Assembly (NCBI GenBank): GCA_004322015.1
Contig: SCQT01000012.1
Location: 1 to 48,701 of the forward strand
DNA length: 48,701 nucleotides
Reading direction: 5' to 3'
From: Chitinophagaceae bacterium
GTDB taxonomy: Bacteria > Bacteroidota > Bacteroidia > Chitinophagales > Chitinophagaceae
A model generated the notes under the pieces. It saw only the letters and a program-made list of their open reading frames with translations. It had not been told where the DNA came from and ran no database searches. Each line of letters starts with the position of its first letter. Within the stretch, counting starts at the first letter, position 1. This document shows, piece after piece, positions 578 through 12,159 of the stretch. The position numbers and the translations under genes were made by a program.

Positions 578-1213
578 ATGGATGCAAAATATTTCAAAAT
601 TCTTTCCTTTTTATATGATAAAGGTATCGGGGAGTATGTAAACATTTCTCCAGTTTTACTAGAACTCTATCCGGACGTTAATAGAATGGATTTTGTAAGG
701 GCCGGATACGAAAGTGGGAGAGTTAGGCAGCTCTTAATAAGCATGACACAAAATGGGCTTATTGAGGTGAAACAATATTCTATTGGTGGTGGGAATAGAT
801 CTGTTGGGGTTGACTGGATTGATACAGTACAAATAATGGCAACAATTACTCAACAGGGGAAAGATAGCGTAGATGCCGAAAAAGAGAAAGGTGAAACCAT
901 ACGCTTAATGGAATCAACTATTTTGACAAACGAATCAGTGAGAGAAACTAATGATGCCACAGTTCAAAATTTACATTTCCAAAGAAAAGCTCAAACATGG
1001 ACAATTATTTTGGGTGCGTTATCAATGATATTTATATCTATAACGGTTATTCAGACAGCTATAAGTAGAACCGAGCAAGAGTTAAAAGGCATTGAAAGAC
1101 AAATGACAAGGCAATCACAAGCGATACAATTACTTGATTCTTCTCTTCAAGAGATAAATTATTCAATTCAAGACAAGAAGACTGATACCGTTTTTCTAAT
1201 ACGCAATAAATAG
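578..1213 (+). CDS. Hypothetical membrane protein: winged-helix-like head, one TM helix, coiled coil
   Basis: I do not recognise this family. Residues 1-95 look like a small helical/winged-helix domain: helices around 3-15 and 35-58, then a strand pair around the GGGNRS turn at 70-75. This resembles replication- or repressor-type wHTH folds, but that is inference. A charged linker (about 96-140) leads to a single hydrophobic segment at about 141-161. After it comes a Gln/Glu-rich, coiled-coil-prone tail (about 162-200). There is no signal peptide, so the head is probably cytoplasmic and the helix anchors it. The gene is visibly more AT-rich than prpBCD, as is the next gene, which suggests acquired DNA. 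It could be a membrane-tethered regulator or part of a small defence or stress module. Confidence 0.6.
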   Translation: MDAKYFKILSFLYDKGIGEYVNISPVLLELYPDVNRMDFVRAGYESGRVRQLLISMTQNGLIEVKQYSIGGGNRSVGVDWIDTVQIMATITQQGKDSVDAEKEKGETIRLMESTILTNESVRETNDATVQNLHFQRKAQTWTIILGALSMIFISITVIQTAISRTEQELKGIERQMTRQSQAIQLLDSSLQEINYSIQDKKTDTVFLIRNK

Positions 1214-1406: not shown

Positions 1407-1949
1407 ATGAAAAAAGATTGGATAGCAATGCTTATAATAAACACTGGTCTTATAGAAATTTCGTTTTTATCAGTAAATGAACAATATGCACTTACCGCGT
1501 ATCTTCAAGAGAATGAAACCTATTCCAAAATTGGAGAGGAAATGCAGCTTACTGATGAAAGAGCCAGGCAACTAATAGTAAAGGGATTCGAGAAGATTTT
1601 ATTAACGATAAGGAGTCTAATTGCTAAATCAGTTCGTTTGGAATCAATTCTTATCGAGAAGGAGAATATTGGAAAAGAACTTTTCGCTTTACATGAGAAT
1701 TTTAAGGAGGAGCAGCAGTTATCGAAGGAAGGATTGATAAAATTAGTGCCTAACGGATCTAATAATCTTTTGGGAAGCATCCCTTTTTCTGTAAGAGCAA
1801 AAAGAGCCTTAGATACTCTTAAAATTGAATCTATAGCAGATTTGTCAAGTCTGACAAAAGAAAAGCTAAACAGCCTCAGACAAGTTGGTGTAAAGACTAT
1901 AGATGAAATCATTAGAAAATCTGAGGAATATGGAATTAAAATAGAATAA
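1407..1949 (+). CDS. Sigma-region-4-like HTH fused to RNA polymerase alpha CTD-like domain
   Basis: Residues about 21-65 read like sigma-70 region 4: an LSVNEQYAL start, then a helix-turn-helix TYSKIGEEMQLTDERARQL, the place of EIGxxLGLTxERVRQI in true sigma factors. Residues about 66-125 form a Lys/Glu-rich helical linker. Residues about 127-176 closely resemble the alpha-subunit C-terminal domain: PFSVRAKRAL, then ADLSSLTKEKL, then a helix-hairpin-helix at LRQVGVKTIDEI. No sigma region 2 and no alpha N-terminal domain are present, so it is neither a complete sigma nor an alpha subunit. It may bind promoter DNA and/or RNA polymerase as an accessory regulator. It follows the membrane wHTH gene on the same strand after 193 bases of AT-rich DNA in which I see no clear promoter. 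Confidence 0.7.
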   Translation: MKKDWIAMLIINTGLIEISFLSVNEQYALTAYLQENETYSKIGEEMQLTDERARQLIVKGFEKILLTIRSLIAKSVRLESILIEKENIGKELFALHENFKEEQQLSKEGLIKLVPNGSNNLLGSIPFSVRAKRALDTLKIESIADLSSLTKEKLNSLRQVGVKTIDEIIRKSEEYGIKIE

Positions 1950-2120: not shown

Positions 2121-2393
2121 ATGGGTATCAGAGAAATGGTGCTGGAAAAAGCAAAAAAAGAAGGCCTTGAGACAGGTCTTAAGACTGGCCTTAAAAGAGG
2201 GCGCCTGAAAGGCCGTGAGGAAGGTCTCGAAGAAGGCCTTGAAAAAGGCCTTGAAAAAGGCAAAGAGGTTAAAAGCTATGAGGTTGTAAAAAACCTTATA
2301 GAACGAATGGGTATGACCGATGCCCAGGTAGCCGATATTGCAGGTGTATCTGTAACTTTTGTAAAGAAAGTACGTAAGAGACTAAAGAAATAA
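2121..2393 (+). CDS. Orphan C-terminal tail of an Rpn/PD-(D/E)XK transposase-type nuclease
   Basis: This 90-residue product has three parts: a short start, a GL-x-x-G type repeat (about residues 15-48, alternating Gly-Leu with Lys/Glu/Arg), and a C-terminal helical/HTH-like end with GMTDAQVADIAGVS. This is the tail arrangement of Rpn-family recombination-promoting nucleases, which carry a PD-(D/E)XK domain of some 200 residues in front. No such domain is present, so the gene is either a decayed remnant or a stand-alone tail. At DNA level the repeat includes near-perfect 12-bp units: the decamer AAGGCCTTGA occurs at 2161, 2233 and 2245, the last two exactly 12 bases apart. Slippage could therefore change length without breaking frame. 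Whether it is expressed is unknown. Confidence 0.55.
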   Translation: MGIREMVLEKAKKEGLETGLKTGLKRGRLKGREEGLEEGLEKGLEKGKEVKSYEVVKNLIERMGMTDAQVADIAGVSVTFVKKVRKRLKK

Positions 2394-2504: not shown

Positions 2505-3056
2505 CTATCTTATTTCTTCAAAATTAAATCTCCGGTAAATATCATATTGTTTCAGATCTTCATTGAAACGGCGCAGCACGATATCGCTGCATACAAAATG
2601 AATATCCGCTTCCGGTATCAGTTTCCTGGCAACGGATAGTTGATAGACCGTCAGCCGCCTGCCTATTGATATATGCGGCGTTACCGACTGGCGTGCCGGT
2701 AAAGGTGCATCATTATGAAAAGCTTTCATCATTTCAACCAAGATCCGTTCGGAGGTTTTATCTGGAGCCAGGAAGAAAGCCCCGCCGGCAAAAGTGCCTG
2801 TGTGGTTGAATCGCAAAGGCGCCGGTGACTGTTGTGCGGCAAAGTGATTCATGTACGCTTCCCACAGTGTCAATGTCTCACTATTGGTTTGAAACACGTT
2901 GAAGGTAATGTGAGCCAATGCATTGACGCTATTAAACCACCCAATGTACGAACGAAGCTTTTGCTTTAGCTGCCTGACTTGTTCAATTACCATATCGGGA
3001 GGTGATACAGCCACGGAGCATTTGAGCAGGCGTGCATGATTATCAGTAGAATCCAT
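2505..3056 (-). CDS. 2H phosphoesterase / 2'-5' RNA ligase (LigT-like) family protein
   Basis: The two HxT/S motifs that define the 2H superfamily are both present: AHITF (His49, Thr51) and PHISIG (His128, Ser130), about 79 residues apart. The length of 183 residues is typical. Family members hydrolyse 2',3'-cyclic phosphates or 2'-5' linkages in RNA or nucleotides; the true substrate here cannot be read from sequence. The N-terminus has no signal peptide, so the protein is cytoplasmic. The gene is transcribed away from prpBCD, and the 159-base gap between them must hold both promoters. No functional link to propionate metabolism is implied. Confidence 0.8.
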   Translation of the reverse strand: MDSTDNHARLLKCSVAVSPPDMVIEQVRQLKQKLRSYIGWFNSVNALAHITFNVFQTNSETLTLWEAYMNHFAAQQSPAPLRFNHTGTFAGGAFFLAPDKTSERILVEMMKAFHNDAPLPARQSVTPHISIGRRLTVYQLSVARKLIPEADIHFVCSDIVLRRFNEDLKQYDIYRRFNFEEIR

Positions 3057-12070: not shown

Positions 12071-12159
12071 TTCAGATATTTTTATAGTATGCAAATGTAT
12101 AAACGTCAAAGGAACGGGCAAAGTATATGCCGGAATGAACTGTTAAGGATTTGTAAAAC

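Follow-up and report, generated by a model that had tools for sequence, protein, structure and literature searches.

Region 4 of the sigma factor (sigma4) and the C-terminal domain of the alpha subunit (alphaCTD) normally belong to different RNA polymerase subunits, and between them they recognize the upstream half of bacterial promoters. A small protein that carries both raises the question of what it is and what it might do outside either subunit. Such a protein, of 180 residues, had been proposed in a preliminary description of the window, i.e., the whole stretch of 48,701 nucleotides from a Chitinophagaceae bacterium that was analyzed here. Our results confirm that sigma4 and alphaCTD are joined in one 180-aa chain, encoded by a gene with the following parts.

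1407-1949 (+): sigma4-alphaCTD fusion gene, with an ATG start, 180 aa and no stop inside the frame
1416-1625 (+): sigma region 4 fold, residues 4-73, with a Pfam core at 23-64 and the recognition helix from residue 50
1554-1733 (+): single predicted helix, residues 50-109, comprising the recognition helix and its continuation as a long arm, perhaps a coiled coil
1722-1766 (+): probably flexible linker, residues 106-120, of low model confidence
1758-1946 (+): alphaCTD fold, residues 118-180, by Pfam, structure alignment and residue alignment

Both proposed modules were recognized by Pfam above the family cut-offs. RNA_pol_A_CTD (PF03118) matched residues 126-171 (E = 5.9e-9, 36 bits against a cut-off of 23.8), and Sigma70_r4 (PF04545) matched residues 23-64 (E = 6.7e-6, 26 bits, just over the cut-off of 24.1), close to the ranges 125-177 and 20-65 put forward earlier. 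In a phmmer search of PDB sequences, RNA polymerase alpha accounted for 11 of the 14 distinct matches at E ≤ 1 (best 7.1e-4, over residues 122-179). A chance match to the two families was rejected from composition-preserving shuffles of the protein, none of which (0/9) matched either family at E ≤ 0.1; two of the nine matched other, unrelated families (best 8.7e-4), all under cut-off. A generic helix-hairpin-helix assignment of the C-terminal domain was also considered. HHH_5 reached 15.3 bits (cut-off 27) against 36 bits for RNA_pol_A_CTD, and the alphaCTD is therefore preferred.

The protein has region 4 of the sigma-70 factors and the alphaCTD of the alpha subunit, and at E ≤ 1 no Pfam match was obtained to Sigma70_r2 (region 2, for core binding and -10 melting) or to the alpha N-terminal assembly domain, in agreement with what had been read from the sequence before. 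All 180 residues are accounted for in the AlphaFold model by sigma4, helix, linker, and alphaCTD. Six NCBIfam alpha-subunit models gave 17-35 bits with the window protein, against cut-offs of at least 227.8. The host genome contains two matches to the alphaCTD family, namely the fusion gene and a separate 331-aa RpoA, whose alphaCTD is 30% identical to that of the window protein. The order sigma4 then alphaCTD in one chain, with both domains above their cut-offs, is found in the window protein and in its same-genus sister (L002, also labeled L037). A role as a defense gene was rejected: among the PADLOC models, PglW matched at the alphaCTD (5.2e-4 for the window, 1.4e-7 for L037), DrmD (0.027) and Cas8a (0.029) were weaker, and no defense context is claimed. 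As a separate observation, models of the BREX kinase PglW match the alphaCTD part of the window protein and of L037:6490-7038, which suggests that PglW may contain an alphaCTD-like domain.

The predicted structure is consistent with the domain assignments. The AlphaFold model of the window protein, built from a 4-row alignment, had a mean pLDDT of 81.6 and a pTM of 0.44, so the relative placement of the two domains is not fixed by it. Helices were modeled at residues 5-13, 15-18, 23-33, 39-45, and 50-109, with a low-confidence segment at 106-120 and the alphaCTD helices at 129-174. In VIA-align, where a Z below about 13 may reflect an arrangement common in helical folds, SigR region 4 (5fgm) aligned with residues 4-73 (Z = 10.0, 65 residues, 2.5 Å) and the alphaCTD 1z3e_B with residues 115-180 (Z = 10.3, 66 residues, 2.6 Å). 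Thus both folds were found, a structure with neither being the outcome that the preliminary description had named as speaking against it. Foldseek with the window model gave nothing at E ≤ 0.001 (best 8.2e-3), and its best 50 rows were mostly alpha-subunit and sigma-4 chains. The fold evidence is given weight here for its agreement with that from the sequence. Dimerization through a coiled coil of the long helix was also tried, and the observed periodicity was reached by 174/2000 and 592/2000 shuffles, i.e., it was not above shuffles. The model of the phage fusion protein described below was too poor for use (mean pLDDT 49.6).

Close relatives of the fusion are few. A scan of genome contigs found one relative, the sister, which comes from the single further genome of this genus that was covered and has 34-35% identity over nearly the full length. 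Its Pfam scores of 39 bits for alphaCTD and 35 bits for Sigma70_r4 are both above those of the window protein. In the family, 45 of 394 genomes matched a two-sequence profile at 1e-6. In 41 of these 45 the match was the alphaCTD region of 300-375-codon frames, read as RpoA, in one (L009) it was the sigma4 part only, and the whole architecture was present in 3/394 genomes (window, sister, and L010). The L009 frame (826-1092, +) codes for 89 aa with an 18.2-bit sigma4 match under cut-off, is uncounted as a fusion, and has an N-terminal motif similar by eye. In the order, 4/396 genomes matched a three-sequence profile at 1e-9. Besides the window, the matches are L118 and L119, both fusions and both in a single genus of a different family, and one RpoA-like frame of 343 codons. 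L118:1237-2067 (-) and L119:1258-2070 (-) have an extra C-terminal stretch that looks, by eye, similar to a second alphaCTD or helix-hairpin-helix, unrecognised by Pfam. In the class, 273 of 295 genomes matched at 1e-8, mostly through RpoA; among the matches listed, nine genomes had more than one match and at least four were fusions (window, L052, L053, and L054), a count that leaves out the short frames G930 and G879 (78 and 174 codons) and the extra matches of G728, G816, G848, G881, and G936.

In addition, longer forms of the fusion are located on a mobilizable Chryseobacterium plasmid (L038) and on phage or element contigs (L039 with its near-copy L042, and L040 with its near-copies L049-L051). 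The window protein itself found nothing among plasmids and phages at E 0.01 and no relative among viral contigs. The links to the plasmid and phage proteins from the sister protein were weak in pairwise comparison (E 2e-3 and 3e-2, respectively), and firmer links came later, from L039 to L040 (6e-26) and from L052 to L038 (3e-7). The L039 phage search gave 12 records, of which the query and L040 were kept and 10 alphaCTD-only or RpoA-like records, including L041, were dropped. Of the plasmid matches, 1/11 (the query itself) and 1/22 (L038, found from L052) were kept, as was 1/2 (L038) with the sister protein, where the other covered residues 21-64 only (E 0.3). The plasmid fusion protein matched 0/296 genomes at 1e-12 and no viral contig.

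The domain content of 12 fusions (window, L002/L037, L010, L038, L039, L042, L050, L052, L053, L054, L118, and L119, with L039 and L042 being near-copies) was scanned with Pfam. The alphaCTD was above cut-off in 12/12 and sigma4 in 8/12. Sigma4 was under its cut-off of 24.1 in L053 (20.6 bits), L118 (20.0 bits), and L119 (23.4 bits), and L010 had no sigma4 match at E ≤ 1, suggesting that DNA reading by this domain is not kept in every member. An extra HTH_17 domain passes its cut-off in three of them (L039, L042, and L050) and narrowly misses it in L054 (26 vs. 27 bits); L038 has an N-terminal extension with no Pfam name above cut-off. The PHROGs matched by the N-terminal helix-turn-helix of the phage fusion are excisionase, MerR-like, and small-terminase families; the middle part of the protein matches a sigma-factor PHROG (3.6e-4).

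The neighbors of these longer forms and of several other fusions include genes typical of phages and recombination. The order of genes in phage record MT835636 is integrase, PAPS-reductase-like, ParB-like genes, the fusion, and then terS, terL, and portal. Integrase genes are near the fusion in L040 and L050, and a serine-recombinase gene is about 4.3 kb from it in L116. An XRE-IrrE gene adjoins the fusion in L115, and a large helicase gene is located two genes upstream in L114. In a phylogeny of alphaCTDs that combined 12 fusions with 25 RpoA proteins, the best tree needs four label changes to accommodate the fusions, and a constraint to one clade was not rejected (p-AU 0.274); both results are soft owing to long branches. 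The window, L037, and L010 copies group together at 91/86 (unstarred). Most likely, the window copy is a shorter member of this wider set of fusions that became stranded in a chromosome, and we infer its descent from a mobile element. On the other side, its nearest relatives, L037, L010, L118, and L119 (the last near a contig end), are located among ordinary-looking chromosomal genes, as judged by eye over 8-16 kb, so that the case for a mobile origin of the window copy is indirect.

The fusion gene is at different chromosomal sites in the two sister genomes. In the sister it is located 5 bp before argH and after argE (gene names by eye). The counterparts of these two genes in the genome of the window are 5 bp apart with nothing between them, and the argH counterpart is 78% identical, so the fusion gene either moved or was gained separately. 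A search for the boundaries of a mobile unit found no common flank between the two copies other than short matches at chance level, and neither gene has inverted or flanking repeats. The AT-rich character noted for the window gene was borne out, with a GC content of 0.33 in both fusion genes against 0.44-0.47 in three window genes from 3216 on and, on the sister contig, 0.38-0.41 in six arginine genes. The neighbor at 2505-3056 is missing from all 7 of the other genomes searched. ORF 2121-2393 (+), of 90 aa, resembles Rpn/putative transposase families in its C-terminal part (TIGR01784, 9e-5; phrog_3300, 5.8e-6) and appears to be a piece of a protein from a transposase family; it has a repeated glutamate/glycine-rich stretch, and FliH models also match the ORF at 6.7e-8, far under cut-off. 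ORF 578-1213 (+) codes for a 211-aa AT-rich orphan (GC 0.35) with one likely membrane helix predicted from its sequence. The Bacteroidetes promoter consensus has a single exact match in the window (below the chance mean of 2.46), at 12092-12122 (-), away from the fusion gene.

The residues used for contact with DNA are partly conserved. R130, G161, K163, and E167 of the window protein correspond to R265, G296, K298, and E302 of E. coli RpoA. When alphaCTDs of 12 fusions were aligned to E. coli RpoA (with L040 replacing L042, and L040 and L050 being near-copies), equivalents were kept for R265 and G296 in 12/12, K298 in 10/12, N268 and E302 in 9/12, N294 in 8/12, K291 and S299 in 7/12, and E261 in 3/12. 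In alphaCTD, R265 and N294 are reported to insert into the minor groove, with phosphate contacts made by K291 and K298 (PMC7822876). The equivalents of N268, K291, and N294, on the DNA-contact surface, are all lost in the window, L037, and L010, in which those of R265, G296, and K298 are kept, and this loss suggests that the DNA grip of the alphaCTD may be altered in this lineage. Position 261 of alphaCTD contacts sigma R603 in a model (PMC7419079); the window protein has proline at this position and the sister has glutamate. In sigma 4.2 of the window protein, the equivalents of E585, R586, R588, and Q589 are kept and that of R584 is D. E585, R586, R588, and Q589 have a role in reading the -35 element.

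We consider it probable (roughly 0.6) that the small window protein regulates transcription by binding DNA and that it descends from a mobile element. The sigma4 helix-turn-helix would read a putative -35-like site, and the alphaCTD, held on the long helical arm and flexible linker, would grip the neighboring AT-rich minor groove, i.e., UP-element-like DNA, or alternatively contact sigma or alphaCTD bound to polymerase. The arm and linker would fix the spacing between the two contacts, and polymerase might be recruited or blocked at a few promoters, giving activation or repression. The members with an added excisionase/MerR-like helix-turn-helix support this use in DNA binding. They also bear on the possibility that the protein is an accessory factor or decoy, whose sigma4 would occupy the docking site of sigma region 4 on the beta flap and whose alphaCTD would compete for UP elements or activators, with the holoenzyme appropriated or damped as a result. 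A sigma-4 fold modeled over residues 4-73, beyond the helix-turn-helix alone, would suit such docking, and the lost alphaCTD contacts of the window lineage fit a protein-binding role. However, R265, G296, and K298 are the equivalents that this lineage kept, and a decoy would have no need of the further DNA-binding domain of the phage and element members. This domain favors an ordinary DNA-binding regulator, and we regard a decoy as possible but doubtful.

It is less probable still that the gene is a functionless, decaying chromosomal remnant of a mobile-element regulator. Such a fate would agree with the rarity of the whole architecture in the family, with the loss of some contact residues, and with a low-GC stretch beside the transposase-family-like ORF 2121-2393 and the orphan 578-1213. 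However, both sister genomes retain an open frame at this low protein identity (34-35%), with both domains above the Pfam cut-offs, and a neutral remnant is unlikely to keep domain signatures over such divergence. The preliminary description had also suggested that the fusion and the membrane protein 578-1213 may be a two-gene signaling unit. The two genes are adjacent, on the same strand, and similarly AT-rich (GC 0.35 for 578-1213 and 0.33 for the fusion). This pairing was not supported by the comparison of genomes: at E 0.001 the 578-1213 protein has no relative in any of the 58 other genomes searched (58/58), the sister fusion is located elsewhere, between the arginine-biosynthesis genes and with no counterpart of 578-1213 beside it, and 193 bases separate the two window genes. 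A signaling unit is therefore very improbable, and a DNA-binding regulator derived from a mobile element is the reading that we prefer.

Such a regulator is related to known systems in its parts. It shares with the RNA polymerase alphaCTD (1z3e_B, 3n97) the domain family, the predicted fold, and the R265/G296/K298/E302 equivalents, but it has no alpha N-terminal domain, and its lineage is without the N268, K291, and N294 equivalents. With sigma-70 region 4 (PF04545; 5fgm, 2h27) it shares the family, the predicted fold, and E585/R586/R588/Q589, whereas region 2 is absent, the recognition helix continues into a 60-residue helix, and an alphaCTD is attached. Structure 3n97, by its title, has alphaCTD and sigma region 4 on UP/-35 DNA as separate polypeptides, in contrast to the one chain here. 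UPF0122/YlxM (1xsv, 1s7o) combines a sigma4-like helix-turn-helix with following helices, and 1xsv aligned with a Z of 9.7 over 91 residues at 4.6 Å. The window protein has no match to Pfam UPF0122 at E ≤ 1, L052 reaches 17.9 bits (under the cut-off of 22.7), and to our knowledge UPF0122/YlxM has no alphaCTD. Whatever sigma-likeness regulators of the Ltr/RinA kind may have, we likewise know of no alphaCTD in them. Late regulators of the Ltr kind in Gram-positive phages activate late genes and are encoded upstream of the packaging genes (PMC13123087). The likeness to the Ltr/RinA kind is that of a phage regulator upstream of packaging genes, the L039 fusion gene being about 4.3 kb upstream of terS. 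The window protein has no Pfam or PHROGs match at E ≤ 1 to families of this kind. Ltr-kind regulators serve as a functional precedent and not as demonstrated kin. A literature search of titles and abstract openings, covering few subscription journals, found no published description of a sigma4-alphaCTD fusion.

A broader proposal can be offered tentatively. Phages and mobile elements, apparently of Bacteroidota, might carry detached promoter readers, in which sigma4 and alphaCTD form a one-piece surface that binds a composite -35/UP-like site and pre-assembles or blocks polymerase at element promoters, sometimes aimed by an extra helix-turn-helix, and which host chromosomes capture. The gene on the Chryseobacterium plasmid is annotated as 'DNA-directed RNA polymerase subunit alpha C-terminal domain-containing protein', suggesting that such annotation names can hide unstudied regulators. 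With a one-chain sigma4-alphaCTD protein, recurring on phage and mobile sequences, host polymerase would be steered by very compact means. Nature would also have provided a test of the idea that these two domains are enough to specify a promoter's upstream half.
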